Source: Paramacrobiotus metropolitanus
Taxonomy: Eukaryota > Tardigrada > Eutardigrada > Parachela > Macrobiotidae
Direction of reading: 5' to 3'
Length of the DNA stretch: 64,000 nucleotides
Assembly: GCF_019649055.1 (NCBI RefSeq)
Contig: NW_026570299.1
Location: 558,001 to 622,000, forward strand
The position numbers were made by a program, and so were the translations under genes. Under the pieces are notes generated by a model that was given only the letters and a program-made list of their open reading frames with translations, had not been told where the DNA came from and searched no databases. Positions 26,183 through 54,489 of the stretch are shown here, piece by piece; the first letter of the stretch is position 1, and the number at the start of each line of letters is the position of its first letter.

Positions 26183-27393
26183 TGCCTCTGGGGGGATGCC
26201 GAGCTCCGTTGAGGCTGGACACACTCCCGAATCCACGAAAAGACGGTTGCCGGTGTCTGTGCGTGCTCAAAAACATCAAATTCTCTTATTCCATTTATCA
26301 CATCAATTCCAAATGCACTATGTGAAAATAAAGAGATCTGTATCAAAATACTATTCCATATCAATTTTAATACAAAAACAGATCAACAGTTATAAGATCA
26401 ACAAAAGTATTAATCAAATGTAGACTAGGATCCTCCATTTCTGACTCGTAAAGGTCACAGGTCCTGTCCACCGTTTTCCGCACTTTGGCCCATTCCGCTC
26501 TGTTGAGCAATCCCGCGCATGTGTAATGCGACTTTCATCACAATCAGCTTGAGAATCGGGTGCGTATCAAGTACGACTTAGGAATACTGCTTCAATCTTT
26601 GGAATACGGTGCGTATCAATTGTACGACTTTCAAATGAGATCCATTAAAGGTCATGGAGGGACGTCGTATAGACAAGCGTAGTTCGCTTCCTCCCTGGTA
26701 AAGGTCAACCTTTGTTGAGATGATCCGTTGTGATGTGCGACTCGGTTTGGGTTAATGGTCCCAAAAGGTCATACGGCTTAAATTCCAATACGATGACTCT
26801 GTTGGGCGGTAATAATCCCAAAGGTCATCCAACTTCACTTCAAACTTCGATTAAAGGTCATGGAGGAACTTAGCCGATTTTTGCCGACTCTCAAGCATTT
26901 CTTCGCTTGCCTCCCTGGTAAAACTTTTAAGTTGACCTTTCCGTCGCACATCCAACTCCAATATGCCTCGAGCGGCCAGAGTGCCGGCAGAGTTTACCGT
27001 AACATCTCCGATGGGGCCGGCTAACTACCGCATTAAATTTACCCCACGATGCTTCCACATTAAATCTTTGACTCTTGTTCGCCGCTTGTGGCCCAACTTC
27101 GGTACGAGAGATCCGGCTTGATTACCGCTATTTCTCTCGTTGACTTATAACACTGATTCGCTTAGAGAGATTGCCGGCATAGTTTGCCGTAGCAACTCTA
27201 ATGAGGCCGGCTGACTGCCGCATCAAGTTTACCCCATCAAAATTTCCACCTGTTGTCTTTCTCTTTTTCGCCGCTTGTGGCCCCCTTTCGTATTCAAGAG
27301 ATCCGGCTTGATTACCGTAGTTTCTCTTGCCAATTTATAACACTGAATCGCTTACGGAGGAGTGCCGGCTAACTGCCGTAGCAACTCCTTTGG
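26183..27393 (-). repeat. Trailer of the giant element with octamer copies and about 190-bp tandem units
   Basis: Noncoding. Six AAAGGTCA and one TGACCTTT (read on +) lie at 26.45-26.94 kb. From 26980 three units of about 190 bp follow, each starting (A)TGCCGGC and containing GGCCGGCT and CGCCGCTTGTGGC blocks; starts are near 26980, 27170 and 27361. The third is interrupted by the nested element and resumes at 31755. The trailer probably also contains the polypurine tract, which I could not pin down beside the LTR. Confidence 0.7.
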
Positions 27394-27544
27394 TGTAGTG
27401 TATGATGTTGCTAAGTGCAAAAGGTCATGAGTTGTGGTGTGCGTTAATACTGATGATTTAGTACGATTACCAGCTGGGTACGAGAATCTGAGACTTTGTG
27501 CTATTACTCTATTATTCATATTAAAGCGTATTACATATACGACA
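27394..27544 (+). repeat. 5' LTR of nested element
   Basis: TGTAGTGTATG to TACGACA. It contains one AAAGGTCA. Just after it, TGGCGTGAAGGCGG is the likely primer-binding site; the cognate tRNA is not assigned. Confidence 0.95.
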
Positions 27545-27577
27545 TTGGCGTGAAGGCGGTATTACTCAAGCGAGTGT

Positions 27578-28441
27578 ATGCCCGGATCGGTCGATACATC
27601 CACGTCGACTTCTGATACTTCCCCAGTGTCTTCCCCAATGACTGCCGCAAAAGAAAAAGCCCAGAACTTGATCCGGTTTAACCCGGATCAGGTTGAATGG
27701 ACATCCTGGAAGTCCCTCCTTAAAAACTACCTGTCCCTCACAGAGACTACAGCTGCGAAGCAAAAGGAAGTGCTGATTAACAGCCTGGAATTGCGCGCCT
27801 TTCAGGATGTTGTCAGCGCTTGCCGACCGAAAGATCCGACCGAATTTTCGTATGATGAGCTGCTGAAGAAACTGGACGACATATATATCAAGGTGACCTA
27901 TCAGACAACTGAATGGGCATCCTTCTTCAGAACACGCCAGCAGTCCAGCCAGTCATTGGTACAGTTCTCTAATGAACTGCGAAACAGGACCTACACATGT
28001 AAGTTCCCGGGGGCCATACTGGAAGATCTGCTGAGCGCTGTATTTGTTGCGGGAGTTCACAGCGATACAACGAGAAGACACCTTATGTCACAAGAGCTGA
28101 AGTCGTTTGATGAAACACTCCAGCTTGCCAGAAGGTTTGAGACGGGACAGGAGCAAGCAAAGATGAACAATAACCTGGAGGAGGATATACCCACCTCGGT
28201 AAAGGTCATCCGGAAAGCTGGAAGAGGCAACGCAGCGAGACAGCAGAGTCCGCGGAAGACGAAGCCCTGCTACCGATGCGGTGGGACGAACCACGATCAG
28301 GCAGACTGCAGATTTCGCAATCAGCCATGCCGAAAATGCGGTAAGAACGGCCACATTGCGAAAGTTTGCAGATCTGGTGCGGCAACGGAAAGGGAACCCA
28401 GCGACGCAGTGGTAGAGTGGAAGCCGTATACGACGTGCTGA
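27578..28441 (+). CDS. gag: Gag of nested Gypsy element
   Basis: An ATG 33 bp after the 5' LTR opens a 287-residue protein. The first 200 residues look like a capsid (retrotransposon gag: WTSWKSLL, then W..FF..RQ and L..AVF.AGV). The C-terminus has two CX2CX4HX4C zinc knuckles (CYRCGGTNHDQADC and CRKCGKNGHIAKVC) that bind RNA during packaging. An AAAGGTCA octamer lies at 28201-28208. The frame closes shortly after the second knuckle and the protease lies in another frame. Confidence 0.9.
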   Translation: MPGSVDTSTSTSDTSPVSSPMTAAKEKAQNLIRFNPDQVEWTSWKSLLKNYLSLTETTAAKQKEVLINSLELRAFQDVVSACRPKDPTEFSYDELLKKLDDIYIKVTYQTTEWASFFRTRQQSSQSLVQFSNELRNRTYTCKFPGAILEDLLSAVFVAGVHSDTTRRHLMSQELKSFDETLQLARRFETGQEQAKMNNNLEEDIPTSVKVIRKAGRGNAARQQSPRKTKPCYRCGGTNHDQADCRFRNQPCRKCGKNGHIAKVCRSGAATEREPSDAVVEWKPYTTC

Positions 28442-28469
28442 ACACCACCACTGGAGAAGGGATCCCATC

Positions 28470-31400
28470 ATGGTGCATCTAACGGTTTGCCGTCGGTCAG
28501 TTGCGTTTGAACTGGACACAGGATCGGCGAAGACCATTGCCACCAGGAAGATGTGGAACGAATTGAAACGACCGGACCTGTTCCCGTGCGACTCGAAGCT
28601 CCGTAGCTTCGGGACACGAAATTCCAGTCCTTGGAGCTTGCTACGTGGGAGTTAAACGCGACGGCGGCAGTGAAGAACGGTTGATGGAACTCATTGTGGT
28701 CGAGGAAGGCACGAACGTCTTGGGAAGGGACTGGATCACCGCGTTCAACCTCCAACACCACAAGATGTCTGAACTGGCGATTGGTCAGGTGCACGAGGAA
28801 AGGTCACTAGAATCCATACTGAAAGCGAACAAGAATCTCTTTCGGGAAGAACTCGGATGCTGCCGGACGTTCCAGGCGCATCTCCACCTGAAGCCGGATG
28901 CAGTGCCAAAGTACTGCAAGCCACGCCCCGTGCCCTTTGCGCTACGAGAGCCTGTGGAGAAGGACATTGAGCGCCTCGAGAGACTGGGCGTCCTAGAACG
29001 GATCGAGCGATCGGCATGGGCGGCGCCGATAGTAGTGGTGCGGAAGCAAGGCGGAGCAGTGCGGATATGCGCGGACCTGAGCACCGGGCTCAACGATGCC
29101 CTGGATGTGCAGCGGTACCCACTGCCCTTGCCGGACGAGTTATTTGCCATTCTCAATGGCGGTGAGGAATTTACCACGATTGATATGTCCGATGCATATC
29201 ATCAAGTGCCACTGGATGAAGCGAGCCGTGAGTTGGTTGCGATAAACACGCATCGCGGATTGTATCGCTACACTCGACTGCCGTTCGAGTGGCTGCAGCG
29301 CCCAGCATCTTCCAACAGATGATGGAAGAACTGCTGAATGGCATCCCGTACGTAGCTGTGTACATGGACGACATTATAATCACAGGCAGAACACGACGGG
29401 AGCACCTTGCAAATCTGGCCGAAGTAGCCGAACGAATGAACCGACAAGGATTCACCCTGAAACAGCAGAAGTGCAACTTCCTTCAGCTGTCGGTAGAATA
29501 CTTGGGATTCGTGGTTGACAGAAACGGCCGACATGTGTCCGAAACAAAGATTCGCGCGATAATGGAGATGCCAGCACCGGTGGACGTTGCCCAGGTGCGA
29601 TCCTTCCTGGGAATGATCAACCATTACGGCAAGTTCATTCACCAGCTGGCGACCAAGACGTACTGCCTCAACGCCCTGCTGAAAGTGGACGTCAAGTGGG
29701 AATGGTCAGGAGAATGTGATGGTGCCTTCCGCAGCCTGAAGGCGGAGCTGGCACAAGCTACAATGCTGGTGCATTACGATCCTGCGAAGCCGCTAATCCT
29801 CGCAGCGGATGCGTCGCAGTACGGGATCGGAGCGGTTATCAGCCACCGCGGACCGAGCGGAGAAGACCAGCCCATTGCCCATGCATCAAAGACGTTGACG
29901 CAAACTGAACAGCGGTACGCGCAGATAGAGAAAGAGGCGTTGGCTTTAGTCTTCGGTGTGAAGAAGTTCGACCAGTACCTGGCTGGTCGGGAGTTCACAC
30001 TCCTTACAGACCACAAGCCGTTGGTCACGGTGTTCGGCCGGAAGACTGGAATTCCTGCGGTATCTGCCAACCGCCTCCAGCGATGGGCCATTGCACTCAT
30101 GGCATATACCTTCACCATCGAGTACCGGTCCACCGATGACTTCGGGCAGGCTGACGGATTGAGCCGGCTCCCCCTGCACTCGAAGGATATCTTCGATGCC
30201 AATGATTGGGGAATGCACGAAGCCATACATGCCGTCCAGATGGAAGTGTTGCGTGAGACACCGGTGGACGCGATGCAGATCGCCAGTGAAACTGGTAAGG
30301 ACCGTGTGTTAGCGCGGTGCCGTCACCTGGTGCTAACTGGATGGCCAGACAAAGCGGCGCCGGACCTCCAACCGTACCACCAACGGCGGCTTCAGCTGTC
30401 CGTGGTTGCTGGGTGCATCCTGTGGGGAGCGAGGACGGTCATTCCGACGTCCCTCCAGCCAGCGCTGCTGAAACACTTGCACGCGACACATGCCGGCATG
30501 GTGCGTATGAAGGCGGAGGCCAGAAGTCATTTCTGGTGGCCTGGGTTGGACGCAGACATCGAGCGACTGGCGAAGAATTGCCCTGCCTGCAGTATGGTGG
30601 CAAAAGAAACGCCGAAAGTGCCGTTGCAGCAGTGGCCAGTTGCCGAGAATCCGTGGCAGCGCGTGCATGTGGACTTCTCGAAAGTGGCCGGAAGTCATCA
30701 AGATGCGGCGGACGCAGTCCGGCGACGTGATCGCCGTGCTGGAGCACTTGTGCGGCCGTTATGGATACCCGAAACAGCTGGTAACCGATAACGGGCCACA
30801 GTTCACCAGTGCCGAGTTTGCAGACTACTGCAAAGAAAACGGGATTGCACACCTGCGCACGGCGCCTGGACACCCGCAATCCAACGGGCAGGCGGAACGT
30901 TATGTCGGCGCATTCAAGGACGCCATGACCAAGATGTTGGCCGACAACCGTGCCAACATCGACGATGCACTGCGGAAATACCTATTCAGGTATCGTACGA
31001 CACCGCAAGCCACCACTGGAAGTTCGCCCGATGAGCTATTCCTCAAGCGCCGAATGCGCACAGCGCTGGATTTGGTACATCCAGACGCGAACGAGACACG
31101 GCAAGCCAACATGGACCGTCATAAACGTAACTTCGATCAGCATGCCAAAGCGAAAAACTTCCATGGCGGACAGCTGGTGTTAGTACGTGATTTCCGCCAC
31201 GGTCCTAAAACCCATTGGACACCCGGCCAGCTGCGGTCTAAGAAAGGAAACCGTCAATGGACAGTTACGGTCGACGGCCAAGAGTGGTTCCGCCACGAAG
31301 ACCAGATCAGGCCGCGTGAATGGCGTACTGCAGCTGAGCCCAACGACGTTACATCGCCAACAGTGCCAAAGGCGATGATATCGGAAATCCCACAGCGTGA

Positions 31401-31572
31401 CCAGCAACCTGCAATAGCGGAGCCTGTCATCCAGCCACAGCCGGAACCAGCTCCGAGGACAGAACTTCCTCCGGTAGCAGTGCCTGCTACAACGAATCCT
31501 GCTCCTCCATTGCGTGTGTCAGCGAGAGCGAATAAGGGAGTCGAGCCAATACGATACGGATATACAAAATAA
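28470..31572 (+). pseudogene. pol: Broken pol of nested Gypsy element
   Basis: Blocks in several frames: protease with ELDTGS near 28515; RT N-terminal half from about 28610 to 29285; RT with YMDD (about 29365), RNase H (AADAS, TDHKPL) and integrase zinc module (HATHAG, CPAC) to about 30680; then integrase core (VTDNGPQF, SNGQAE) to the stop at 31572. The frame changes near 28610, at 29283-29288 inside the RT fingers-palm (LPF is followed by a shifted frame), and near 30672-30690. At the last point the segment between the first catalytic Asp (HVDF) and SKWPEV is absent. The product cannot be functional as it stands. The tail is Pro-rich. An AAAGGTCA lies at 28799-28806. Confidence 0.9.
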
Positions 31573-31586
31573 AATTTTTTTTTATC

Positions 31587-31598
31587 GGGGGAAGGAGA
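31587..31598 (+). other. Polypurine tract of nested element
   Basis: GGGGGAAGGAGA directly precedes the 3' LTR, the expected position of the plus-strand primer in reverse transcription. Confidence 0.85.
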
Positions 31599-31749
31599 TG
31601 TAGTGTATGATGTTGCTAAGTGCAAAAGGTCATGAGTTGTGGTGTGCGTTAATACTGATGATTTAGTACGATTACCAGCTGGGTACGAGAATCTGAGACT
31701 TTGTGCTATTACTCTATTATTCATATTAAAGCGTATTACATATACGACA
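31599..31749 (+). repeat. 3' LTR of nested element
   Basis: Identical to 27394-27544. Followed by the second TTTGG target copy. Confidence 0.95.
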
Positions 31750-31754
31750 TTTGG

Positions 31755-31976: not shown

Positions 31977-32384
31977 CTATTCCATTTCATTTGAATCGTC
32001 CTCGCCATCTCTTGGCGGGCGCTTCTTAGAGCTTTCTGGTTGGTTACGGTCAGACGTTCGGTCAACTGGTTCCGTGGAATCAACTGCCATGACCTTTTCC
32101 GGATCAACTTCTCGCTGACCGCGACCTTTCCCTTGGCGACTGCGTTTAACCGCCTCTACCCGATGGCGTGCGTCATTTTCTTCCAGTCGCAGTCTTCGAT
32201 TGTCGGGGTCATCCGCTAGTCGACGCTGTACATCGGCGAGATTTTCCCGGAGCTGCTGGTTCCGTAGACCACGTCGTCCAAGCTGGTTAGGGGCGCGTTC
32301 TGGGCGCCGATCGCTTTTCTTCACAAGGAATTCGTCGATATACATTTCAACTCCGTCGAAGGGGTCGACGTAGTCGCTTCCCAT
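31977..32384 (-). CDS. Block Y frame 12, charged small protein or C-terminal part
   Basis: 135 residues from an ATG: acidic start (YVDPFDGVEMYIDEF), then a long Arg/Glu/Asp-rich, probably helical middle (LRENLADVQRRLADD) and a basic, disordered end with KKRPP. It overlaps the previous frame by 64 bp. Two stops lie just upstream in this frame, so either the ATG is real or the frame was entered by a shift. One octamer reads here (DPEKVMAVD). No family recognised. Confidence 0.5.
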   Translation of the reverse strand: MGSDYVDPFDGVEMYIDEFLVKKSDRRPERAPNQLGRRGLRNQQLRENLADVQRRLADDPDNRRLRLEENDARHRVEAVKRSRQGKGRGQREVDPEKVMAVDSTEPVDRTSDRNQPESSKKRPPRDGEDDSNEME

Positions 32385-32935
32385 GGTGTCTTTGATTTAT
32401 TAACCCTCTCTTCTACCTGGGAGGCATGGCGTTGTGTAAGATTGCCCTTTTCCATACGTATCTTGCACTTTTTCAACGCCTTTCTTGCCGTATGGGCTAT
32501 TCCAACATGTTCCATGGGTTCGCCCAATTTCGCCACGTGAGGTCGGAAGAGTAGTGGGATGTCGTCCTTCATGGTATTGGACACCAATTGGTTATGGGTC
32601 TTATAATGTGCCAATCTTGCAGCGAAAACCTTTTGCCCCATCCTTCTTGCGGCATGATCTTTAGGATCCACTTGTAACCCGATCGATGCTCTTGCTGCAA
32701 GCAACTTGAAGGCTGGATTCACGTGTCGTAATACAAACTGAGCGACATATTCTTGTCGTTCGGGATAATCTCTGTAACAGAATTGTGTCATCCCGATTGG
32801 GTCAGTCGTATCCAGTGGCACGTCCAACAAATTCAGATCCAACAGGCTATGTAATCCGTTTCGTCGAATAGGGAGGTAACAATCCCTTGCTGAGTCGCGG
32901 GGAATGTATAACTGACGGAAACTTCCTTGTTCCAC
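32321..32935 (-). CDS. Block Y frame 11, helical protein segment
   Basis: 204 residues with no ATG at the open-frame start. It lies in the same frame as the segment before it (32987-33661), separated only by a TAG at 32987 with no second stop, so the two were probably one protein. The middle is well ordered: aromatic and Leu-rich helices (PERQEYVAQFVLRHV), then HAARRMGQKVFAARLAHYK. This is the most globular part of block Y. No known family recognised and no membrane span. Confidence 0.55.
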   Translation of the reverse strand: MEQGSFRQLYIPRDSARDCYLPIRRNGLHSLLDLNLLDVPLDTTDPIGMTQFCYRDYPERQEYVAQFVLRHVNPAFKLLAARASIGLQVDPKDHAARRMGQKVFAARLAHYKTHNQLVSNTMKDDIPLLFRPHVAKLGEPMEHVGIAHTARKALKKCKIRMEKGNLTQRHASQVEERVNKSKTPWEATTSTPSTELKCISTNSL

Positions 32936-32986
32936 TCCCTCTTTAATTTCTTTCGCATAGCCCGAGTCGAATAAAAATTGACGCAG

Positions 32987-33661
32987 CTAGTTCAGAATTG
33001 TATGGATCTTATTCGCATCCGCCGAATCGTCTTCAATCCCTATGTATCGGCAGATTTCTATCTTTTGTTCGTCGGTGTCGCGCATATCGTATACCATATC
33101 GATTGTGTCGGGGTGTCGGTTATTGAATCGAGAAGTCGTTCGCCGATCGACTTCGCGACGTTCATCCGGTTCGCGCTGACTTTCTTGTGCGCTTCGTTCT
33201 CCTGATTCTGCCTGCGGCGGTTCATTACTCGCCGGTGTAGGCGGTTGAAGGTCGCTGTCCAGAATAACGTTTCGTCGGTGTGTCACATTTGCTTGGGACG
33301 CTTCTGCAATTGAACTGGGTCCTTCCATCGGGTCATCATCTTGAGCGGTGCTAATAATTGGGTCCACCACATGGACGGTTGACTCCATTCTTTGATACTT
33401 TGGGGTGAGTCTTCCCTTTCTGCGCTGGATGACCTTTACTTGCGCCAGATTCAAAACCCGCATAATACCTGGCTCTTTCCTGCCAGCGTTTATCCTGTGG
33501 GTCTGGCGTTCGATTTCGCGTGTGTTCGCGTCTTTTATCCCATGACCTTTCCGGCGTAGACATTCTAACATTGCGATTACGGAATCCAACTTCCAACGGC
33601 ACCTGATGACCTTTCTTTTCAGGCTCTGTACGGTATGACTCCGCACGCCGTTGCTCTTCAC
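32987..33661 (-). CDS. Block Y frame 10, mostly disordered segment
   Basis: 224 codons, no ATG at the start. It overlaps frame 9 for 310 bp. Reading from frame 9 appears to move here near 33415-33440, beside an AAAGGG run. The middle is Pro/Ser/Glu-rich (PPTPASNEPPQAESGER); the last 50 residues look ordered (TIDMVYDMRDTDEQKIEI). Ends at the in-frame TAG at 32987. Function unknown. Confidence 0.5.
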   Translation of the reverse strand: MKSNGVRSHTVQSLKRKVIRCRWKLDSVIAMLECLRRKGHGIKDANTREIERQTHRINAGRKEPGIMRVLNLAQVKVIQRRKGRLTPKYQRMESTVHVVDPIISTAQDDDPMEGPSSIAEASQANVTHRRNVILDSDLQPPTPASNEPPQAESGERSAQESQREPDERREVDRRTTSRFNNRHPDTIDMVYDMRDTDEQKIEICRYIGIEDDSADANKIHTILN

Positions 33662-34502
33662 GTCCTCTAGTCGCTGCTAGAATCTTTGCCGTGTCGATTT
33701 TTCGTTGGATGCTTGTCTCCGTTATCTCATTTCCATGGCGTACCCATCCTCTTCCGCCACGGTAGTCTCTGTCGCGAGAACGCTCGCGTGACCTTTCGCT
33801 TCGGTAATCCCGTGTCCTTTCCCGGGAATGTTCACGTGACCTTTCACTTCGTCTTTCAGAAGTCCGCTCATGTTCCCGTGAATGTCCGCGTGACCTTTCT
33901 CTCTGCAGAGGCGAACGGGGTCGTGTAAACACATCGTCTCGTCGAAAGCCTCTGAGCGCCTGTAAAACATTGCTCTCGGTCTGGCGGGATTTACGCAGCT
34001 CCTCCATACGTTCTTCGACTGCTTTCTTTATGTATGGTGCCGGAGCAAAACCCTTTTGCAGTCTTAACTTTTCCCGTAACAGCGCATCAAATAGGTCTTG
34101 TTGCATGGCCGCCGGATCGCTCGTCAGCGTGTCGATTTGAATAATGAGCGACTGGCGTATCAGCTGTGCTTCGTCGTCATTGAGGCTGGCTGTCGGTACA
34201 GTCGAACTCGACGGATTGGGCTGCGTCTCTCGTGCGGCCTGTTCGCTCGCCTTTTGATTCGCCGCATTGATCTTCGCCCGGAGTTCGTCCTCCAGCTGTT
34301 GCCGCCGCATCTTCTCTTGTTCTTCCTCAAACTTCTTCCGGTATGCGTCCGTCTGTGGGCATTTCAATGGCTCCAGAGTCTCATCCCAGCCGCTTTCGTT
34401 ATTCTGGATCGCTTCCCGGTAGCGATCCTCGAGTAGCATCCGCTCCTCAACTGGGATGCTGCCATAGTTCCTCGCGCTGATGAGGTTTCGAAAAACGTCC
34501 AT
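33351..34502 (-). CDS. Block Y frame 9, SR-like Arg/Ser-rich protein
   Basis: 383 residues from an ATG. The N-terminal third is helical with a charged coiled-coil-like stretch (KKFEEEQEKMRRQQL). Around residues 195-255 it is extremely rich in RS, RE and RD dipeptides (SRGHSREHERTSERRSERS), like the RS domains of splicing regulators. Several of those ERS units are encoded by AAAGGTCA octamers. The C-terminus is basic and probably read partly in frame 10. RNA binding or packaging is plausible from composition only. Confidence 0.6.
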   Translation of the reverse strand: MDVFRNLISARNYGSIPVEERMLLEDRYREAIQNNESGWDETLEPLKCPQTDAYRKKFEEEQEKMRRQQLEDELRAKINAANQKASEQAARETQPNPSSSTVPTASLNDDEAQLIRQSLIIQIDTLTSDPAAMQQDLFDALLREKLRLQKGFAPAPYIKKAVEERMEELRKSRQTESNVLQALRGFRRDDVFTRPRSPLQRERSRGHSREHERTSERRSERSREHSRERTRDYRSERSRERSRDRDYRGGRGWVRHGNEITETSIQRKIDTAKILAATRGREEQRRAESYRTEPEKKGHQVPLEVGFRNRNVRMSTPERSWDKRREHTRNRTPDPQDKRWQERARYYAGFESGASKGHPAQKGKTHPKVSKNGVNRPCGGPNY

Positions 34503-34708
34503 GTTCCCCGTTTAGCTTCCGTAATCCCCACGAGTGAAACGATATGTGGGTCGCCCAACTTGTGAATGCATGCATAGCAGGGGAATTTCTTATCGACCTT
34601 TTTATTATTCCGTAAACAGTCCGGACACTTTGGGTTATAGCCCGTAGATCTGTTTATCTCCGATGCCGTTCCTGAGCTTTTAGGAGTGGCTTGACCTTTC
34701 TGTGCCAT
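34364..34708 (-). CDS. Block Y frame 8, putative zinc-binding N-terminus
   Basis: From the ATG at 34708 the protein is basic and has CPDC-x12-CYAC followed by His, a likely zinc ribbon or finger. A good splice acceptor (TTTTCTGATTGCAG) ends at 34725, 16 bp before the ATG, so this could start a spliced subgenomic mRNA. The frame overlaps frame 9; a five-T run at the overlap (about 34490) is a plausible point of frame change. The first sense-strand octamer lies at codons 4-6 (KGQ). Confidence 0.55.
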   Translation of the reverse strand: MAQKGQATPKSSGTASEINRSTGYNPKCPDCLRNNKKVDKKFPCYACIHKLGDPHIVSLVGITEAKRGTWTFFETSSARGTMAASQLRSGCYSRIATGKRSRITKAAGMRLWSH

Positions 34709-37283: not shown

Positions 37284-37421
37284 GATTTCGACATCATGAG
37301 ACGACGGTTCGTCTTTCTTCTTTCTCTCTCCCTTTTTCTTCCGGGTGTTTGTGCTCTCACTTTCATCACCACTCTTCTTCTTCTTATCTTCTTCTTCCTT
37401 CCGTTTTTTTAAAAAGTCACC

Positions 37422-39021: not shown

Positions 39022-39046
39022 CTCCTTGCGTTTAACTTCGATGACT

Positions 39047-42743: not shown

Positions 42744-42766
42744 TACTGCCAGACATTCCCATTCCG

Positions 42767-45700: not shown

Positions 45701-48700
45701 AATGTGTGGCTTCCACATTTCGTTTGTCCGCATGATACTTTTCACTTCTTTTTGGACGTGACCTTTAAGATCTGCTAATGCAGCGTTACATCTCGGCCAT
45801 TCTGAAAGGTCATCTTGGGAGGCGTCTTGGCAGCATTCAGTGCATTCCCATTGTGGTTGCACTCTACACGGATCCTCGTAGTAACCGTGTCCGCAGCTCC
45901 CCATTCGTTCTTCTGGAGTTAATATCCTCCGATTCGTTTGCGGTTTGGTGATCTCCTTCTCCTGTGTTGTAGCTTTCTGCTCACATTCGATTTCTGTGCT
46001 ACTCGCTTCGTCGGAGGATATTTCAATAATCTCTGTTTCATTGTTCAGTTGGTGACCTTTCAACTGTTCAAGCGCTTTGTTGCGGATTTCGCTCGCGAAC
46101 ATCTGTTCTTCTTCGGCTATTCGTTTCAATATCCGCAATCTTTCACTCTTTTTATCCTTCCCGACTTTGGCCGTCTTTATTCCCAGTGCCTCTGGTACTG
46201 GGATAGGCTTTGCCCACTCCATGCCAGGCACAAGCGATTGTTTCGCTGCAGCTGTCGCCTCTTTCTGTGTGGCAGCTATCTCTTCAAGTGTTGGTGACCT
46301 TTCGTCATTTCCGGTAGTAGATCGAGGTTCGAAAGATTTCGGGGTACGCTCTGGTACTTTCTGCAAATCTTTTTCCTCCTTCTCATTTCCGGTAGCAGGT
46401 CGTGGTTCGAAAAAGGTCTTGCTGACGTTTTTCGGATCCGACTCTGATGCCAAATTCTCAACCGGTGACCTTTCATCTTTCGTTCCCAGTGCCTCTGGTA
46501 CTGGGATAACTTTTTCAACACATTCTCTTGCTGTGGCTCCTTGCTCACGGTTATCTGCGATCATACTTCTCCCGTCCGGGAGAAATATGATCGCCTCATC
46601 CATGTCTGGCGCGAGCGGTTCCTTTCTCCTTTCGTTGGCTTTTTTGACATTTCCACTTTCACTTTTCTTCTCCGGTGCCTCTGGTACCGGGATTATCCGT
46701 TGGTTGGTCTCGTTCTGCTGCACTCTCGTCATTCCCGGTGCCTCTGGTACTGGGATGACCTTTTCTCTTCCCTTTTGTGTCAGCATTGTCCGGTTTAGTG
46801 TGTTTTCAATCTCCTGTTGAATCATTTGCGGCTGCTCAAATGGTGACAATTCTTTTTTCGCCCTCATTTCCTTTGCCTTTCCCGGTGCCTCTGGTACTGG
46901 GATTAGCGTTTTATTAACCGCTTGAGCGTTTCCCGTCTGTTTTACAAGTTCGGTGACCTTTCCGACTTGAACTCTGGCGATCGGTTTCGGATCATCTTCT
47001 TTCTCTTCTTCGCCTTCGTTATCCATTAATACGAACTTCTTCTCTAAGAAGTCGAATCCCAGTAGCACCTGGACGTCATCACATTTCGGTCGGACGTAGA
47101 ATGAATGTTCGCTAGTCTTTTTCCTTAAGGTCACTGGTGCTACGCAATAATGCGTCACCATGAATCCTGATGTTCCGCTAATTCCATTTATCTTCACCAG
47201 TCTGTCTGGTGGCAATGGGAGCATATGAAGTCCATTCTTCTCGCAAAACGGTTTGCTGATCAGCGACGTCTCAGCGCCGGTGTCCAACATTGCGTTGACC
47301 TTTATGTCTCCCACTTTCACTTCATGAGTGTACGCTTCAATTCTTTTAGGCAATTTTCCGTTTTGAATCTTCAATGTGTGGATCTTACATTTCACAGGGA
47401 TTAACGATACTGGTCCCGGATCCATATCGGGAGGCACTTGTCCTTTCGCCGGAGTGCTATGACCTTTCAGTATCTCCCTCAAATTGTCGATCCTGTGTGG
47501 CACGTCAGTTCGGACATCATAGAATTTCTGTGGCTTTTTCTTGTCTGCTTGTTTCTCTGCGGTAATTTTACCACTGGTGACCTTTTCAACGTTCTGCACT
47601 TGCGGATTTGCTTTTGTGCTATCCACGTGACCTTTAGTCAATTCGTTTATCGTCTCATGGATCAGTTCCTCTTTGCATTTTTCGTTTCGTTTATCTCGCA
47701 ACTTCTCAATGACTCCACTTGTTATTTGGTCAGCTCGCTTCAATTCATCTGTTTCGCTATCTTTCATCTCGTTTGGTGACCTTTCATATGTAACCATATC
47801 ATATCCCTTTTCGGTCATCCATTCAATCACCTTTGCAGACACTTCATTGTTCGTTTTGGTCGGGTCGATTTGTGAAGACATTCCATCGGTTCGAGCTGGT
47901 GACTTGTCATTGGCATCCTTCTGCAGTGCCTGTGACAAGTCCCGTGACCTTTCGGCTGCGCTACTCTGTTGCATTTGCGCATTCTCATTTGACCCTCCTT
48001 TCTGTTCATTTTGCGCTAAGTCCTGTGACCTTTCATTGCGCTTTATAACAAATCCGCCGTTTGACATCTTTTGTATGGGAACTTTTTCTCCATAATTCGA
48101 CGGTTTGTCTTTCGGTGGTGCATTTCGCGAGTTATTCAGGTCAGCTTGTGCATTCTTGTATTCAGTTGCGTTAAATACTGGAGCAAGGTTCGGTGACCTT
48201 TTAACTTCTTGCCCGGTAACTAATTCTTCCAGTCGTTTTCTCTCATGTCGCGTTCGCAATTCTCGCATGTCCCAGTAATCTTCTTGAGACATTCCCACTT
48301 TCTGTTTCGCTTTTGGCGTCACGGGTATCCATATCCCGTGATTCCCATTCGGTCTATAGGCTACTTTTTGCCATATTTCCTTCCGTTGCAGCGTTACTGC
48401 ATCCACAAGTGAGTCATCGGAGTTCTGCTGTTCCGGTTCGCCATTCTTCTGCTGCGCTGTTCGCAGTGTCAAGTCTGTTTCTTGACCTTTTAACACGGTG
48501 CTTTCACCATGACCCTTAGCGTTCGCCCTCGCTCCTTGACCTTTCACTTGGACTTTTCCTACGGAAGGTGACCTTTCATCTTTTCTGTTAGTGATATTCT
48601 GCTCCATCCATTTTTGCCTTATCAACTTGTCCTCTGAACAATTCCAGAACTTTGGCTTCGGTTCTCCGTAACAATCGCAATTTGGCCCATTCACCTTATC

Positions 48701-49231
48701 GTTTTCTTCCAAGTATTTCCGGAATTTCGCATGTTGCTCATTTACCTCTTGCGCAGTATCGTTCTGCGGTTTCTTCTGGTTCAGCAGCGCCTGTTTAATC
48801 TTTGCGTTCCGTTGTGCGCGTCGTTGCGCTAACACTTCTTCGCTGCAGTACGGTGACCTTTCATTTTGCTGCGCTGTTCGCAGTGTCGCGCTACCGTCAC
48901 GACAATTTCCACTCGCAGTACCATTCTGCGGTGACCTTTGGTCCCGTTGCGCGTTTCCACTCGCAGTACCATTCTGCGGTGGCCTTTTATCCACTTGAAC
49001 ATTTCCACTCGTAGTGCCATTCTGCGGTGACCTTTGGTTCTGCTGCTGTGACGGCATTCTTATAGCCGTTTCGATTTCTTTTTGCAATGACGACATCCAT
49101 ATAGCCGTTTCTTGTTGATTATATGACGGCATCCATCTAGCCGTTTCCTGTGGTTGCGGCATCCATATAGCCGGTCCACTTTCGTTTTTCGCTGACGGCA
49201 TCCGTATAGCCGTTGCAGTGGTCACATTCAC
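42767..49231 (-). CDS. pol: Pol, N-terminal part: long repeat-rich region, protease, reverse transcriptase, RNase H start
   Basis: 2,154 codons. The open frame begins upstream and overlaps the end of gag in the -1 frame; the first codon here is GTG, so expression by -1 frameshifting from gag is likely. Residues 1-600 are a disordered, repeat-rich region unusual for Gypsy Pol (ETAIWMP units, RSPQNGTASGN units). The aspartic protease has LDTGAETS near residue 649. A second long linker carries PVPEAPG and FEPR repeats. RT has FCVNY near 1872 and GYIDDV near 1972; IDD replaces the common MDD or VDD. RNase H starts with ECDAS. The frame closes inside RNase H near 42790 and continues in another frame: one break in an otherwise intact enzyme. 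Confidence 0.9.
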   Translation of the reverse strand: MNVTTATAIRMPSAKNESGPAIWMPQPQETARWMPSYNQQETAIWMSSLQKEIETAIRMPSQQQNQRSPQNGTTSGNVQVDKRPPQNGTASGNAQRDQRSPQNGTASGNCRDGSATLRTAQQNERSPYCSEEVLAQRRAQRNAKIKQALLNQKKPQNDTAQEVNEQHAKFRKYLEENDKVNGPNCDCYGEPKPKFWNCSEDKLIRQKWMEQNITNRKDERSPSVGKVQVKGQGARANAKGHGESTVLKGQETDLTLRTAQQKNGEPEQQNSDDSLVDAVTLQRKEIWQKVAYRPNGNHGIWIPVTPKAKQKVGMSQEDYWDMRELRTRHERKRLEELVTGQEVKRSPNLAPVFNATEYKNAQADLNNSRNAPPKDKPSNYGEKVPIQKMSNGGFVIKRNERSQDLAQNEQKGGSNENAQMQQSSAAERSRDLSQALQKDANDKSPARTDGMSSQIDPTKTNNEVSAKVIEWMTEKGYDMVTYERSPNEMKDSETDELKRADQITSGVIEKLRDKRNEKCKEELIHETINELTKGHVDSTKANPQVQNVEKVTSGKITAEKQADKKKPQKFYDVRTDVPHRIDNLREILKGHSTPAKGQVPPDMDPGPVSLIPVKCKIHTLKIQNGKLPKRIEAYTHEVKVGDIKVNAMLDTGAETSLISKPFCEKNGLHMLPLPPDRLVKINGISGTSGFMVTHYCVAPVTLRKKTSEHSFYVRPKCDDVQVLLGFDFLEKKFVLMDNEGEEEKEDDPKPIARVQVGKVTELVKQTGNAQAVNKTLIPVPEAPGKAKEMRAKKELSPFEQPQMIQQEIENTLNRTMLTQKGREKVIPVPEAPGMTRVQQNETNQRIIPVPEAPEKKSESGNVKKANERRKEPLAPDMDEAIIFLPDGRSMIADNREQGATARECVEKVIPVPEALGTKDERSPVENLASESDPKNVSKTFFEPRPATGNEKEEKDLQKVPERTPKSFEPRSTTGNDERSPTLEEIAATQKEATAAAKQSLVPGMEWAKPIPVPEALGIKTAKVGKDKKSERLRILKRIAEEEQMFASEIRNKALEQLKGHQLNNETEIIEISSDEASSTEIECEQKATTQEKEITKPQTNRRILTPEERMGSCGHGYYEDPCRVQPQWECTECCQDASQDDLSEWPRCNAALADLKGHVQKEVKSIMRTNEMWKPHIERYHWNRYRTWLSCVKNFITGRGKWLNHWQQRVDNGIQDPLDPVSTERKLEREIDSMNEEVQLWEEARIELFWDFRINHMYKGQGRTIIFPTGLGTPVYESVVVFCKALKDDNWELFDKYWRKFEAEIPIFDTKEMRELQITRKRRLPGLMEKKKVTFAPDPDGVEYPERGGDTWCMYETIPSDDWVTEELMANCVFVGPKRPKGYETVQQDEGDKETMKEAEKEETAKETAEGGSNETEGSSKSAFDIAHMLTDRGEMWKKFKEEVERISNEQQNPVTEAKNGERSLDNGEEGPPVELTEKPLTNLEGIEKPKSDEEKSNSDQSERSSTRIRVVRSHPRVATRNGRKAKETDKPLLKNSKAKKLNDSRGNESDLSSEDEGVDERPFEKADKGQAAAQEYESSDSDSEWTSSSDNSTTSEDSGVSDLSEQEDLMDLDEDDEVDEEKEKEIKVRRLKVEKARMSKDVIKVYSDQRIKLKPSNCTRVKVKMGKYAPAQNKLMFTPVPQVETEVQPLAGVTDHRGKYFAIVIANHSSKYQIVKKNQLLGYVEPYEHMENVKVNAGTVKNVLEDPEVDDTTKAELTKIIGNLKLGPDLTEEQKNDVYDAFWEFWKVLPTSKKPYGDVKGVTHVIDTGDAKPIKCNPARTSWTGREFITKHIEEMLAQDVIEPSDAEWSFPVVLAVKKNGDGTMGTRFCVNYIMLNKLTRKNNYPLPNPDELLDACAGNKYYGKMDLQSGFWQIPMDPASINKTTFVTQDGMYRFKRMPFGVCNGPATFQLCMDKVLSKAKRKGCVFGYIDDVIFAGKTWAIFMQNLRNVLMSLVEAGFTIKPTKCEFGMRQMGFLGHILSEDGIRMDPEKVTAVSEFKRPQTERQLRSFLGLANYYRKFIMGYAQKTCHLYELLRQDKQVKKDWTKVHEGEFNSLKQLLCEGPVLAKFDPAKPTVIECDASKEGIGAVLSQDGHPIAYASRVYTEPREITA
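46180..46910 (-). repeat. Dispersed short repeats in the Pol linker
   Basis: Five copies of a block encoding IPVPEA(P/L)G (CCTCTGGTACTGGGAT on +) at about 46.19, 46.49, 46.68, 46.74 and 46.89 kb, and two encoding FEPR..TGN (GGTTCGAAA on +) at about 46.32 and 46.40 kb. Two more FEPR copies lie at 40.36 and 40.44 kb. They are similar at DNA level, so they arose by duplication. Confidence 0.75.
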
Positions 49232-49250
49232 TGCAGTACCATTCTGCAGT
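48880..49250 (-). repeat. Tandem repeats at the start of pol
   Basis: Two sets. At 48.89-49.04 kb three units join CACTCGCAGTACCATTCTGC-like sequence with the octamer. At 49.05-49.22 kb five units ACGGCATCC.TATAGCCGT occur, each with a 5-bp self-complementary end (ACGGC/GCCGT), so short hairpins can form in the RNA. Confidence 0.75.
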
Positions 49251-49311
49251 GGTGACCTTTCCCTTTTATCCGGTGGTTTAGGGTCGGGACGATCAGTAGG
49301 CTCACCGGTGC

Positions 49312-52300
49312 CTACTGATCTTGCCCGTTTCCCTGAACCGGCGCCCCACCTTGTTGCGCGCCCTGCACATTTCCTTGCACATTTCCTTGTCCGTCGTTAT
49401 TTACCGGGACATAGTTTTGTCCGCCTCCGTTATTCTGGCCACCACCATTATTTTGGCCACCACCCTGTTGGTAGTTTCCGCCTCCATTTGCACCGCCTCG
49501 GTTGCCGCCATTCCAATTTCCGCGGCCGAAGCCTCTGTTTCTTCCTCTGAAGCCGCCGCGGCCGAAGCCACCACGGCCGTAGCCACTATTCTGGCCACCG
49601 CCATTTCCATTATTCCCGTTTCCTTGTTGATTTGGGAAGTTTGCCCGAGCCTGATACCATTGCGCAATCAGGTCATATCCGTTTGCCACCGCCTGACGCC
49701 AGCCACCCGTGTTGCGCAGCCGTTGCCATTCTCTGAAGGCGAACAGATTTGGGTTCTGATCCGGCGGCGTATTCGCGAACTTGCATCCTTGCGTCTGGTG
49801 GTTGCCGTACATGCAGTATTGGCACATCTGTACGCCGTTTGCCACCCATCCGTCGATCATCTGGAACTTGAATTCTGTTCGTGACCCTTGATTCTGTTGA
49901 AAGTTCTGATTTCCTGTGTTTGGCTGGAAGTTGCCCTGACCTTGACCTTGGAAGTTTCCTTGACCTCCGTTCCAGTTCCCATTTCCGTATCCATTTCCAC
50001 CGAAGTTGCCATTTGGCATTCCCTGTTGCGGTATCGCCACGTTCGGTGGTGCCACATTCTGGGGTGCTGGCCTCACTTGAGCCGCCGTTTGTATCGCCGC
50101 TACCATTGCGTACGTTATGGGTTGTCCCGTCTGACTGTCGATAAAGGTCACCTTTTCTGTGACCTCTCTGACCGGAGTCTCCACGCGGTATTCAACCTGC
50201 TGTTGGACTGGCGCAGCCGTCATTCTCTGTTGTGGCACGTTTTCAACTTGGCCTTGGCGGATGGTTGCGTATTCCTGATTACGTTGACCTTTTGGCGCCT
50301 TGTACTTTTCTTCTCCCGTTGCCCAGTGTCGGAAAAAGTCCTTCACGTCGGTTGGCGTCCTGCACTTTTGTGTACGCAATGCCTTGTAGAGTTCGTTATC
50401 CACTCTACATCCTTCAATTAAGAATCCCACTGCTTGTTTTTCTGTAATGATCCTTTTTGCTTTGAACCGCATTATCGCCTGATAATATTGGTCGAGTGAT
50501 TCTTTTCCCAGTTCAAATTTCCTTGCATAGGCCTCGCGTAAGCCTAAGACTTCTTCATCCCGGTCACCGTATTCATCTTTGAATTTATCCATCCATTCTG
50601 TTACGGAATACTCGATTCCATCCTCTGATGCGATGTCTTTTTCACTTTCAAACCAGGTTTTGGCAGGACCTTTCACCGCACTGGCTATCTCGATCATAAT
50701 TTGGTCATCGGTAAGCTGGTAAGTTCTCTGCGTATCTTTTACCAGTCTTGTCCAGCCATTCACTGTGTCGCGACTGCCATCAAAGGTCACGAGTGGCGTT
50801 TTTCGAGCCATGGAGTTAAGCGCCTTTGCTAATGCAAATCCCGATTGCGCTTTCTGATCCTCTTCCTCTTCGCCACTTTCGTCGTCGTTTGTATTTCGCC
50901 TCTCCTTTGCGTAGCGGGACTTCCTTGGGCGCTCTTGCCGACTAGATTGTTCGTCCCGTCGTCCTTCGTTGACAAAGACGTTCGTTTCAATGTGCGGGGG
51001 AAACTGTGAGGGATCGCCATGACTCGGATAACCTCCTGATGGTGGCTCTTTGTCATCTTTGCCCTTGTCACCGTTCGTTTCATTTTTAACATTTCCTTTG
51101 CCGGTACCAGTTCGTAAGGGCATTTCAAAATGGAAGCTTTTGCCCGTGCCCGTTTCATGCGCCTTGCTGTAACTGGGCGGGGGAGACTCCACTGTTGCTG
51201 ACTTGGCTTCGTATCGCAACAGCTGTTCATCTTTGTGTTTGTTTGAGATGTTGAGCGCTTTATTCTCATCTTCTAGTCGTTTATTCCTTAGCTGAAGCTC
51301 CTCTCTCTCAATCCGCAAATCGGAGTTTTCCTGTTTGACCTTCTGCATATGGGCATGCAGTTTGAAAGTTTCCTGCTGGGTGACCTTTTCGTTATCTTGT
51401 TCCATCTTTTTGATGTGTTCGACCAACTGGGTCACATCTCCTTCGAGTTTCTGATACTCCCCAGCGGCTGATCTCAGCTGATTTTTGGTTGTAATCAACT
51501 CGTCGTCCTTCGCTAGTGCTGTAGTGGTCATCTCGACGAGTTCAGTATTCAACCTCGCGATTTCCTCACTCTTTTGGTCAAGCTGCTGTTGCCATTCTGT
51601 ATCCTTCAGCTCTAATGCTGTAACCATTGTGTCGAGCCGGAGTGCTTGAGTTTGCCACTTAAGGCCTTCCTTAGTGATCTTTTGAATTTCTGCCGTGACC
51701 TTTTCGTTTTCGTCGTTGGCCTCTTTAATCTCTTTTGCCAATCTTTCTCCTTCTGTTGCTGTGATGTTTCTCGCCTCGCGCATTGCTTTAATTGCCTCGT
51801 TGCGTAGCTTTTCAGCTTCGTCGGCGCGTTCCTGGTGACCTTTTGATTCACGCTGCAGAGTACCGATAGCTTCGTCTCTGAGCTTCAAGTCGTTTCTGAG
51901 TTTGAACGTCTCTGTCGCCAGCGCTGTCAATCGCTTCGTGACCTCTGTGAAATTGGTCGCGTACTCGTCTCTTCTAGCTTCAGCTTCGGTGACCTTTTGA
52001 CGCAATTGGTCACACTCGTCCTTCAGTTCGGCTAAGTGCCGTGACCTTTCTGCTGACTCCTCGGACATGCTCTCGTTCAACTCGTTGACCGCAAGATGAC
52101 CTTCCATTTCTCTGTCATCTACCATCTTCAAGTATTCTTCTGCCATTTCTCTTTGTTTTTCATATTTCACCTTCCATTCATCTGCCATGTTTTCCAAATA
52201 ACCCCGTTGCTGTTCCATCTCGAATAATCGGGTTTCAAGTGATACCAATCTCTCTTGGTATTCCTGTTTTCTCTTAACCATCTGTCCTTCCTTGGCGTCA

Positions 52301-53055
52301 AGTTCACTTTCCAAATCTTGGACGCGTCTCCTCAGTGTCAGCGTAGGGCTACTTGGTGAAGGTGGTCGTACGTTTATGACTTTTCCAGTCTGTGTCCGCT
52401 CGATGAGGTGTTCAGGTATTTCTTTAAAAGGTGTCATCCCTTCAGCACGGTCGGCTTGTCTCATCGCAGACTGGAAGGACATATTCATCGTTGTTTCGTC
52501 ATCCGTAAAATATGATTCATTCGATTCGTCTGAGACCATTGGAGTCGCCCAAAGGTCATCGCTTGCAGTCTTATCGTTCAGTGAAAGGTCATCCAATCCG
52601 AGTTCAGCCAGTTCCTCTTCGGTGACCTTTGTGTTTCCCTCCATTTGAGCCAGGTTCACATTTTTATCCTGCTCATTCATTCCACTGATGGTAGCATCCA
52701 ATTGGGATGCTACCACTGCTTCCGCTGTCTTTTCTGTGGTTCTGTCCTCCCCAGTGACCTTTGTCTGGTTCATCGGTTCACTTCCCGCCACGAGCGCGGG
52801 GGTTTGCTTTCCATCTCCGCTGGAGCTCTCTTCGTTCTCTGTAGCTCCCAGCGCCACTTTGTATGTATTATCACTGCCTTTGCTGTCCTTCCTTGCAAAG
52901 GTCACCGCTGCTCGGGTCTGTCTGTCATGTCCGACTGGACGCGCGAGCGACTTGTATTCTTTTTTATAAGGATCCACTGCGCCTTGCTGTGATCCTCGGG
53001 AGCTCCTGCTTCCCTGGCTGCTGTTAGATGTTGGTTCCGCGTTGTCTTTGTCCAT
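49312..53055 (-). CDS. gag: Gag of the giant element
   Basis: 1,247 residues from an ATG, three to four times the usual Gypsy Gag length. Residues about 240-600 are a long coiled coil (LESELDAKEGQM and onward heptads). A linker with Gly/Lys follows. A retrotransposon-gag capsid-like domain covers about 750-930 (TPLVTFDGSRD, then WFESE, W.DKFKDEYGDRDE, ARKFELGKESLDQYY). One zinc knuckle CX2CX4HX4C lies near 1078 (CQYCMYGNHQTQGC). The last 130 residues are Asn/Gly/Arg-rich with RGG repeats (GRGGFGRGGFRGR), resembling prion-like RNA-binding domains. Gag assembles the particle and binds genomic RNA. The extended coiled coil and RGG tail are unusual. Pol follows in the -1 frame. Confidence 0.9.
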   Translation of the reverse strand: MDKDNAEPTSNSSQGSRSSRGSQQGAVDPYKKEYKSLARPVGHDRQTRAAVTFARKDSKGSDNTYKVALGATENEESSSGDGKQTPALVAGSEPMNQTKVTGEDRTTEKTAEAVVASQLDATISGMNEQDKNVNLAQMEGNTKVTEEELAELGLDDLSLNDKTASDDLWATPMVSDESNESYFTDDETTMNMSFQSAMRQADRAEGMTPFKEIPEHLIERTQTGKVINVRPPSPSSPTLTLRRRVQDLESELDAKEGQMVKRKQEYQERLVSLETRLFEMEQQRGYLENMADEWKVKYEKQREMAEEYLKMVDDREMEGHLAVNELNESMSEESAERSRHLAELKDECDQLRQKVTEAEARRDEYATNFTEVTKRLTALATETFKLRNDLKLRDEAIGTLQRESKGHQERADEAEKLRNEAIKAMREARNITATEGERLAKEIKEANDENEKVTAEIQKITKEGLKWQTQALRLDTMVTALELKDTEWQQQLDQKSEEIARLNTELVEMTTTALAKDDELITTKNQLRSAAGEYQKLEGDVTQLVEHIKKMEQDNEKVTQQETFKLHAHMQKVKQENSDLRIEREELQLRNKRLEDENKALNISNKHKDEQLLRYEAKSATVESPPPSYSKAHETGTGKSFHFEMPLRTGTGKGNVKNETNGDKGKDDKEPPSGGYPSHGDPSQFPPHIETNVFVNEGRRDEQSSRQERPRKSRYAKERRNTNDDESGEEEEDQKAQSGFALAKALNSMARKTPLVTFDGSRDTVNGWTRLVKDTQRTYQLTDDQIMIEIASAVKGPAKTWFESEKDIASEDGIEYSVTEWMDKFKDEYGDRDEEVLGLREAYARKFELGKESLDQYYQAIMRFKAKRIITEKQAVGFLIEGCRVDNELYKALRTQKCRTPTDVKDFFRHWATGEEKYKAPKGQRNQEYATIRQGQVENVPQQRMTAAPVQQQVEYRVETPVREVTEKVTFIDSQTGQPITYAMVAAIQTAAQVRPAPQNVAPPNVAIPQQGMPNGNFGGNGYGNGNWNGGQGNFQGQGQGNFQPNTGNQNFQQNQGSRTEFKFQMIDGWVANGVQMCQYCMYGNHQTQGCKFANTPPDQNPNLFAFREWQRLRNTGGWRQAVANGYDLIAQWYQARANFPNQQGNGNNGNGGGQNSGYGRGGFGRGGFRGRNRGFGRGNWNGGNRGGANGGGNYQQGGGQNNGGGQNNGGGQNYVPVNNDGQGNVQGNVQGAQQGGAPVQGNGQDQ

Positions 53056-54478
53056 GTTGATCGGATAACTTTGACGCTCCTGCCAATTGTTCTCACAAAC
53101 GCGTTATTGTATGGTTTATTCAATTGACCTAAAGGTCACTTTGTACTTTCGAAATCTTTCTAAGTCCCTGTTAAAGGTCACTTTTCGATTGAAAAATTTC
53201 GGCTAAGTCCCGTTTAAAGGTCACTTTTTTGATAAAAAGTTCGAGAGATTTGCCCTAAAGGTCACTTTCCAGACAAAACTTCGAAACCGTTCTTACAGTT
53301 CAAAACACGTTTACAAATAAAATCCTACAGCTGCTAATATCGCTGTACTACTATTCACTTCAATTGCACTTCGATAAAGGTCACCGTTTGTCGCTTTCAG
53401 ATCGTAAAGGTCACTTAAATAGGTCAATTTAGTCAGTTCCAACTTTTTAGTAAAGGTCACTTTCCGAACTCAAAGGTCAACTTCTCAACTCGTTTTAAGT
53501 TAAAAGGTCACTTTCCAGCTCAATTAAATCAAAGGTCACTTTTCCTTTGTTTCAACTCAAAAGGTCACTTCTCATCTCAATTCAAGTTTAAAGGTCACTT
53601 CCCGCTCAATTATCTCATCTCAAATCAAATTTCCCGTTACGACTCGAGTTCAATGGAAAATCCCCATTCGGGTTGTTTACTTCATTCCTATTGGTCAGCT
53701 AGCTCAAATTATTCTGTTCAAATTTCAACCAATCACAGCTCAGATAACCGACCAATCACGTTACTCCTCTTAAATTTTATATCTGCCTGACGTCACGGTC
53801 AACGGCCAGACATGCGCGCCGTGTGCAAAACTCCGCCTACTGTTATGCTCAGCTCAGTATCGGCCAATAGAAATTACCAAATTTATCAACTAGCCAATCC
53901 CGTAATTAATAACGGTTTTTCTACCTGTTAACCGTCCGTCCGTTCCACGTTCCACAGGGAAAATGATCCGAATGATCCAGATTCTTCTTCCAACTCCGCT
54001 CCCGCGTCGCCGCTGTTCCGTAGCGTGCCTCGCGCTATTAGTCTAGTACTGTGCCGGCTGTGCCGTAGCAACAGTAGTGCTCTACAACCAGTTTGGAGGA
54101 GTCTGATCTGTCTTTTCCCGTGCGCCCCTTTCGGCGCTTCGCCTCTTGTGGCCCACGGCTTAGGCTTCGCTGAAGCCTTGCCGAGTATCAGTGACACCAG
54201 TGTAGGTCTTCGCTGAAGACTCTACACCGAGGAACACTGACGACTGAACTCTTGAACTCTTTCACAGCTGAGGAAACAGCATAGGTCTTCGCTGAAGACA
54301 CTGTACCGAAAACCAAAGCTGGTAATCCACGTCCGATGAGACAATTTCACCGCTTGTGGTGTGCACGTTGCTGTCAAACAGACCTGCGCCTTGCTGGTCG
54401 CGGATAACGTCAAATAACAGGCTAACTTTGCCTGACACAATTCAAATCAAATCAATCAATTCAGAGAACCGCTGTCGG
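53056..54478 (-). promoter_or_regulatory. Leader of the giant element with octamer array and hairpins
   Basis: Noncoding. Between 53121 and 53600 twelve AAAGGTCA copies (read on +) occur, mostly as AAAGGTCACTT, with uneven gaps of roughly 20-100 bp. At 54162-54178, 54206-54220 and 54285-54299 lie three hairpins of the type GTCTTCGCTGAAGAC (the first as AGGCTTCGCTGAAGCCT). A block with GTGCCGGCT, GCCGTAGCAAC and CTTGTGGCCC near 54050-54155 resembles the trailer units. Packaging or dimerisation functions are possible but inferred. Confidence 0.7.
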
Positions 54479-54489
54479 CTCTGCTACCA
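54479..54489 (-). other. Primer-binding site, initiator tRNA-Met type
   Basis: In sense orientation TGGTAGCAGAG follows the 5' LTR directly. It matches the complement of the 3' end of eukaryotic initiator tRNA-Met (CTCTGCTACCA) over 11 bases, the usual primer of many LTR elements. Confidence 0.85.

Follow-up and report, generated by a model that had tools for sequence, protein, structure and literature searches.

A Gypsy-type retrotransposon carrying one octamer

The window analysed here is a 64,000-nucleotide stretch of the tardigrade Paramacrobiotus metropolitanus, positions 558,001 to 622,000 of contig NW_026570299.1 (our C79, 666,635 bases). It contains a long terminal repeat (LTR) retrotransposon with the Gypsy domain order, which carries the same octamer, in one orientation (TGACCTTT) or the other (AAAGGTCA), from its leader to its 3′ non-coding part. 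Direct repeats, flanks and Pfam domains place the element, LTRs included, at window positions 25827-54844 with its sense on the minus strand. It is flanked by a putative 4-bp target duplication (AGTG) and measures about 24.7 kb without a nested insert. Between the LTRs, with this insert excluded, the plus strand holds 65 TGACCTTT and 29 AAAGGTCA, that is 94 octamers in 23,949 bp, over which 840 composition-matched 8-mers average 1.16. These counts reproduce those of an earlier sequence-only reading, which had set the element at 26183-54489 and called it saturated with the word. The 94 octamers stand, and the scope needs correction: no octamer lies in either LTR or in the initial 0.9 kb of the leader.

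Unless stated otherwise, all features of the element lie on the minus strand. The 5′ LTR (54490-54844) and 3′ LTR (25827-26182), recognized as direct repeats, enclose a primer binding site, TGGTAGCAGAG (54479-54489), which we take to match the initiator tRNA-Met. A leader of 1.4 kb separates this site from gag; its octamer-free first part (53600-54489) is followed by an array of 12 sense TGACCTTT (53131-53599), whose gaps measure 20-46 bp in 11 cases and 119 bp in one, with the shared context AAGTGACCTTTA. The gag-like open reading frame (ORF), 1247 codons from its ATG (49312-53055, 13 octamers), has by eye a coiled-coil-like stretch and one C-X2-C-X4-H-X4-C knuckle. Downstream, pro-pol (40098-49396, 39 octamers) encodes protease, reverse transcriptase (RT), RNase H and integrase joined by long linkers; this domain order, together with the LTRs, makes the element a member of Ty3/Gypsy. 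Only 2 of the 39 pro-pol octamers fall inside the named enzyme domains, which take up 536 of 3130 codons. Two further coding blocks follow. Block X (35070-40018, 13 octamers) is in four pieces in the window copy and intact as a single 1780-aa ORF in another copy (L045, the C97 copy). Block Y (32321-34511, 9 octamers) is in three pieces here and forms one long ORF in other copies (the C97 copy has a 966-aa open frame); by eye it has an RS-rich stretch and a CX2C...CX2C stretch. Frame changes disrupt pol, X and Y in the window copy, that of pol lying within RNase H. The 3′ non-coding part holds the remaining 8 octamers, 6 TGACCTTT and 1 AAAGGTCA (sense) of them at 26183-27393, and is split by a nested Gypsy element on the plus strand (27394-31751, 153-bp LTRs). 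This insert lies outside the octamer system; its own four octamers are one per LTR and two internal.

Searching the 169.8 Mb genome, we scored 131 RT matches from 1554 first-look candidates; apart from partial matches, they group roughly at 96-100, 88-92, 86-87 and 79-86% identity to the query. Annotated P. metropolitanus proteins, including LOC129595506, match the element. For X and Y, the 8000 candidates scored for each included no relative from outside this species (and 1 and 12 proteins, respectively, from within it).

The octamer is exact, present on both strands and independent of the encoded protein

Word counts in the coding DNA of the window copy (20,085 nt) were compared with 1000 synonymous-codon shuffles, which preserve the protein and codon usage and leave dinucleotides unconstrained. 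Sense AAAGGTCA occurs 59 times (4.4 expected, shuffle maximum 14) and sense TGACCTTT 11 times (0.31 expected, shuffle maximum 3), giving 70 exact octamers against 4.7 expected when both orientations are pooled. AAAGGTCA is found in all three reading frames (13, 22 and 24 times) and TGACCTTT in both of its stop-free frames (7 and 4 times). Overall, the 48 one-mismatch words show no enrichment in coding DNA (37 against 39 expected), with a slight excess of first-base variants, including the SF-1/FTZ-F1-like CAAGGTCA (10 against 4.7). Because both orientations exceed the codon null and the neighbouring words do not, the octamer is an exact word, enriched on both strands and independent of the protein. 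The claim of the sequence-only reading that its use in three frames cannot come from selection on the protein is thereby upheld.

The strand pattern bears on one of the roles proposed in that reading, an RNA packaging signal, and more broadly on any RNA-level signal, including one that acts through pairing of leader UGACCUUU with coding AAAGGUCA within the genomic RNA. In the window copy all leader sites do share one orientation while the coding sites mostly take the opposite one. However, the codon null by itself predicts a bias of 14:1, and the observed 59:11 is less biased, both orientations being enriched; the orientation result in the coding DNA of subfamily C goes in the same direction. 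Pairing, moreover, requires complementarity and not one exact word. We therefore regard an RNA-level role as very improbable.

Site spacing gives only a hint of a footprint. In subfamily A, to which the window copy belongs, no gap shorter than 28 bp occurs among 75 sites (6.8 expected), and nine segments together have 16 short gaps against 35.5 expected, with two segments above expectation. Helical phasing of the leader sites was also considered and was not convincing.

The whole genome contains the octamer 42,562 times and the reversed word 15,522 times. Within a sample consisting of the first 100 plus-strand octamers listed on contig C1 (832 kb), 41 are isolated, at 0.049/kb, about as dense as the reversed control word (0.045/kb overall, unfiltered for isolation); the excess in this sample is therefore mainly clustered. 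The one cluster inspected, two stretches at C1:205500-222000, proved to be another, distant member of this family. The original observation thus withstood both the codon-preserving shuffle and the genome-wide count with its 100-hit sample. A mild excess exists in the 35 kb of the window outside the element, with 5 octamers against a mean of 1.26 for matched words (17 of 840 reach at least 5). Two octamers lie in the open frame of the second of the exons that look GPCR-like (G-protein-coupled receptor) by eye, at 22096-25749 adjoining the insertion site. Elsewhere in the window, positions 7346-7873 form a GC-rich tandem repeat with periods of 41/81/122 bp.

Octamers are under selection during propagation

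The comparison between copies covered 3.9 kb of pol, with 13 octamers (104 columns), in the 30 best RT matches, all from the window's subfamily. Variants shared by at least two copies occur in 3 of the 104 octamer columns, compared with 61/208 flank columns and 1061/3588 other columns (Fisher p 5.5e-12, octamer vs other). Single-copy variants occur in 23/104, 62/208 and 690/3588 columns, respectively, and are equally common in octamer and other columns (p 0.45). Shared variants have most likely passed through propagation, and single-copy variants are mostly post-insertion or sequencing changes. Since the former are depleted in octamers and the latter are not, the octamers are under selection while the element propagates.

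The sites are also conserved between subfamilies. A and C1 share 62% nucleotide identity in pol; of 31 A sites, 25 can be aligned ungapped, and C1 has the exact word at 20 of the 25, compared with a background of 7.3% for other windows. Identity is 89% at the sites and 58% in their flanks, the pattern of conserved sites and drifting flanks that the sequence-only reading had suggested looking for. At windows with identical amino acids every site (13/13) is exact; the corresponding figure for other windows is 23%.

These comparisons leave little room for a spread of the word by mutation or recombination without selection, whether through template switching, a role proposed earlier, or through templated insertion. 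The leader sites do resemble degenerate tandem repeats. The coding sites, however, have little in common except the octamer itself and one or two bases after it, and there is no overall enrichment of near-miss words. The depletion of shared variants affects the octamers and spares their flanks, and conservation exceeds background even at windows with identical amino acids. We find such a spread hardly credible.

A sister lineage has replaced the word

Lineage B, the sister of A by RT, has nearly or wholly lost the octamer, with 0 left in 24 kb of the C97 copy and, in 10 kb each, 6 in the copy L043 and 2 in the C46 copy. Of the sites in A, 0/23 are exact in the C97 copy (background 12%) and 4/21 in L043. 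Leaders reveal what has taken its place. Among 23 leaders (20 picked for diversity from 150 matches, and three others), seven (class I) hold 7-13 TGACCTTT each; eight (class II) hold 4-9 AACGATCT with 2-3 TGACCTTT remaining; seven (class III, that of the C97 copy) hold 4-7 TGAGCTGA and 0 TGACCTTT; and in one, presumably the copy near C9:1233194, the array is deleted. The classes overlap slightly, with 0-2 TGAGCTGA in class II leaders and 0-2 AACGATCT in class III leaders. The replacement words (CGATCT/GAGATC; TGAGCTGA) sit in the same leader array and appear more weakly in coding DNA. Against the codon null, AGGTCA is the most enriched hexamer there for both A and C; for the class II set it is GAGATC (46 against 19.7) and for the class III copy AGCTGA (40 against 14.7).

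Hexamers learned from leaders alone were then scored in coding DNA. Class I hexamers reach z 18.3 on A and 30 on C, against -0.7 on the class III copy and 0.4 on the class II copy C46; class III hexamers reach z 7.8 on the class III copy, and class II hexamers z 4.1 on C46. In every copy with a known leader class, the hexamers of its own class score highest. At 17 aligned ancestral sites in L043, the fifth octamer base is A in 8 and G in 8; two sites have changed at this base alone (AAAGATCA) and the others carry further changes. An RT tree of 12 sequences with a distant outgroup groups classes II and III (the class III copy and L043, the latter classed from coding DNA alone) at 99 and places them as sister to class I subfamily A at 88, with class I paraphyletic. 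The switched words retain the common core YGANCT and follow the element's phylogeny within a single genome. They can be written as AGMTSR, a pattern chosen post hoc on the same sequences.

This replacement weighs against the first role proposed for the octamer, that of a response element through which a host nuclear receptor, binding as an NR4A-like monomer, would drive expression. The class I word AAAGGTCA is the NBRE, the monomer site of NR4A-type nuclear receptors. The host does have a zinc-finger C4 family (63 exon-level matches, one with a CESCKGFF P-box), and the mild octamer excess outside the element would fit a host factor. Yet a lineage of the same element has dropped the word for AGATCR/AGCTSA, which are not known as receptor half-sites. 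A slowly evolving host factor should not vary with the element lineage in one host, and a fixed host receptor site is therefore an inadequate explanation. The octamer-free LTR and the general lack of enrichment among near-miss words, apart from the first base, point the same way. This role is thus weakened, and we consider it improbable.

Several observations on these copies stand apart. A degenerate motif search by expectation-maximization (EM) in lineage B returned low-information patterns, the leaders giving clearer words. Second motifs in C copies (GAAAGTAAC, CAAGGTGGCC) proved nearly all local to the gag-pol junction and not body-wide. At the start of pol, C-type copies repeat a hairpin-like motif with the 7-base loop AAAGTAA and varying matched stems of at least 4 bp (sense coordinates 2709-3519 in L040, 2877-3524 in L041 and 2672-3530 in L039). 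A perfect 4-bp stem is present in 10/10, 11/11 and 5/7 occurrences, respectively, which gives the motif the look of an RNA element that covaries, close to where gag meets pol. A few hairpins with the loop AATGGTA or GAATGGTAC occur at about this place in the window copy and in L043. Between protease and RT, the pol of L043 also has an oddly divergent Cys-containing linker, about 50-60% identical to other copies. The stretches on either side mostly resemble its sister more closely, and recombination is a possible cause.

Block X encodes a candidate binder

At its end, X has two predicted winged-helix domains, one at 35355-35609 and the last at 35097-35339, a reading based on Pfam, secondary structure and VIA-align Z. 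By sequence and modelled fold, the last matches the globular domain of linker histones. Foldseek with the X model listed no match at E <= 0.001, and the X profile found none among solved-structure sequences at E up to 1. The C-type copy L068 (C9:945000-954999) lacks block X and has only part of Y. Window scans for a gag or pol segment that tracks the motif class yielded none that stood out.

A binder supplied by the host instead would be another fast-evolving DNA-binding protein of the insulator or architectural kind, which the element would exploit much as gypsy exploits Su(Hw), different element lineages adapting to different host factors. In its favour, the 12-site leader array resembles the twelve Su(Hw) repeats described for the 5′ untranslated leader of Drosophila gypsy (PMC2493044), and X is so far a candidate. 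Against it, the words keep the YGANCT core and track the element's phylogeny in one genome, which is easier to achieve with an element-borne factor, and isolated genomic octamers are near background in the listed sample. We consider this host protein unlikely, though less so than a nuclear receptor.

A possible self-recognition system

The octamer is enriched independently of protein and strand, selected, conserved between subfamilies and replaced in one lineage. From this we infer a protein that binds it, with X as binder, and a purpose for the binding. On balance, the octamers are probably double-stranded DNA sites for a co-evolving self-recognition protein. The element would label most of its own DNA with octamers that selection retains, and the dozen sites of the leader array and the roughly 70 in coding DNA would be bound by a sequence-specific, co-evolving protein. 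Element-encoded X, with its two predicted winged-helix domains, the last linker-histone-like, is the best candidate. Binding may extend over the element from the leader array outward and, as a form of anti-silencing or insulation, leave its chromatin in an open or insulated state that permits transcription. Alternatively, it may serve to hold, package or protect the long (25-kb) cDNA. The analogy with VANC proteins and the gypsy insulator makes chromatin opening or insulation the likely purpose. Because the sites run through 20 kb of coding DNA, coverage of the whole element, not of the promoter alone, is suggested. In one lineage the recognized word would have moved from TGACCTTT to CGATCT/TGATCT and TGAGCTGA-type words, in leader and coding DNA alike. 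Of the four roles offered by the sequence-only reading, the element-encoded, VANC-like binder is the best supported, owing to the exact word, its presence on both strands, the depletion of shared variants, conservation with drifting flanks and the lineage-specific switch; X is so far a candidate for this binder.

A number of findings weigh against this explanation. The class I leader sites all have one orientation, which DNA binding does not require, and sites are absent from the LTR. With a mean pLDDT of 50, the model of X is weak as a whole, and X is missing from one C-type copy that carries octamers (C9; L040, L068), while present in other C-type copies. Within the first winged helix, A and C, both class I, have different stretches preceding KRAYKEG, and this stretch is nearly the same in classes II and III, whose words differ, so this domain does not simply track the motif. 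In a few short windows of gag and pol, A is equally close to C and to B, and none of these windows delimits a class-tracking domain. Words of classes II and III are shorter and more degenerate, about 2-fold enriched as against about 10-fold for class I. Class II hexamers, a set that includes GGTCAC and AGTGAC, are also raised on the class III copy (z 5.8), A (z 2.9) and C (z 2.4). L043, the tree's only class II row, is raised for all three hexamer sets, with class II highest.

Tentatively, one may go further and propose that an animal LTR retrotransposon encodes a sequence-specific tandem winged-helix chromatin protein, one helix domain being linker-histone-like, carries that protein's word about 100 times across its own genome and within its coding frames, thereby coating its DNA and telling it apart from other DNA, and has switched specificity and word together at least twice in one host. 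An exact self-marking word, selected inside coding DNA and swapped in a sister lineage, would be a countable record of co-evolution between an element and a DNA-binding protein, and the three word classes provide a ready-made test of specificity. Open-licence PMC text has no paper naming both Paramacrobiotus and retrotransposon, and its listed matches (leaving out PMC11071193, on tardigrade transposon curation) show no such element in their titles and abstract openings.

Comparison with known systems

In bacterial DNA uptake sequences, too, a single short word of exact sequence is over-represented throughout coding DNA and serves as a mark of self-recognition. Unlike the octamer, they span whole bacterial genomes and come with uptake machinery, and no mechanistic link is proposed. 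The gypsy insulator is closer in that an LTR element carries a twelve-site leader array, matched here by 12 sites at 53131-53599 and by 7-13 in the seven class I leaders. It differs in its word and in its binder, the host zinc-finger protein Su(Hw), and body-wide coding sites of the Su(Hw) motif are not known in gypsy. Protection against repressive chromatin is among the effects reported for the gypsy array (PMC2493044).

The VANC proteins of Arabidopsis VANDAL elements offer the other parallel. According to a 2017 Nat Commun report (PMC5735166), VANC21 recognizes YAGTATTAY and VANC6 recognizes AGTTGTCC/AGTTGTAC; as with the octamer, a short motif has accumulated in the element in a tandem-like manner and differs between related families, and co-evolution of protein and motif was proposed. 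VANDALs, however, are plant DNA transposons, in which VANC is bound in non-coding parts and DNA methylation is affected (PMC5735166), whereas the present element is an animal LTR retrotransposon whose coding DNA holds 70 sites, spread over all frames, and the sites are not restricted to non-coding parts. The likeness to VANC/VANDAL is one of analogy and not a claim of homology; with the gypsy insulator, too, we draw a working likeness and claim membership in neither system. PMC8821070 reports that DNMT1/3 were not found in two tardigrade species and that DNA methylation is predicted to be absent. Demethylation is therefore an unlikely route, and any anti-silencing in this phylum would need to work otherwise. 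If our explanation is true, self-recognition of the VANC type would extend from plant DNA transposons to animal LTR elements.

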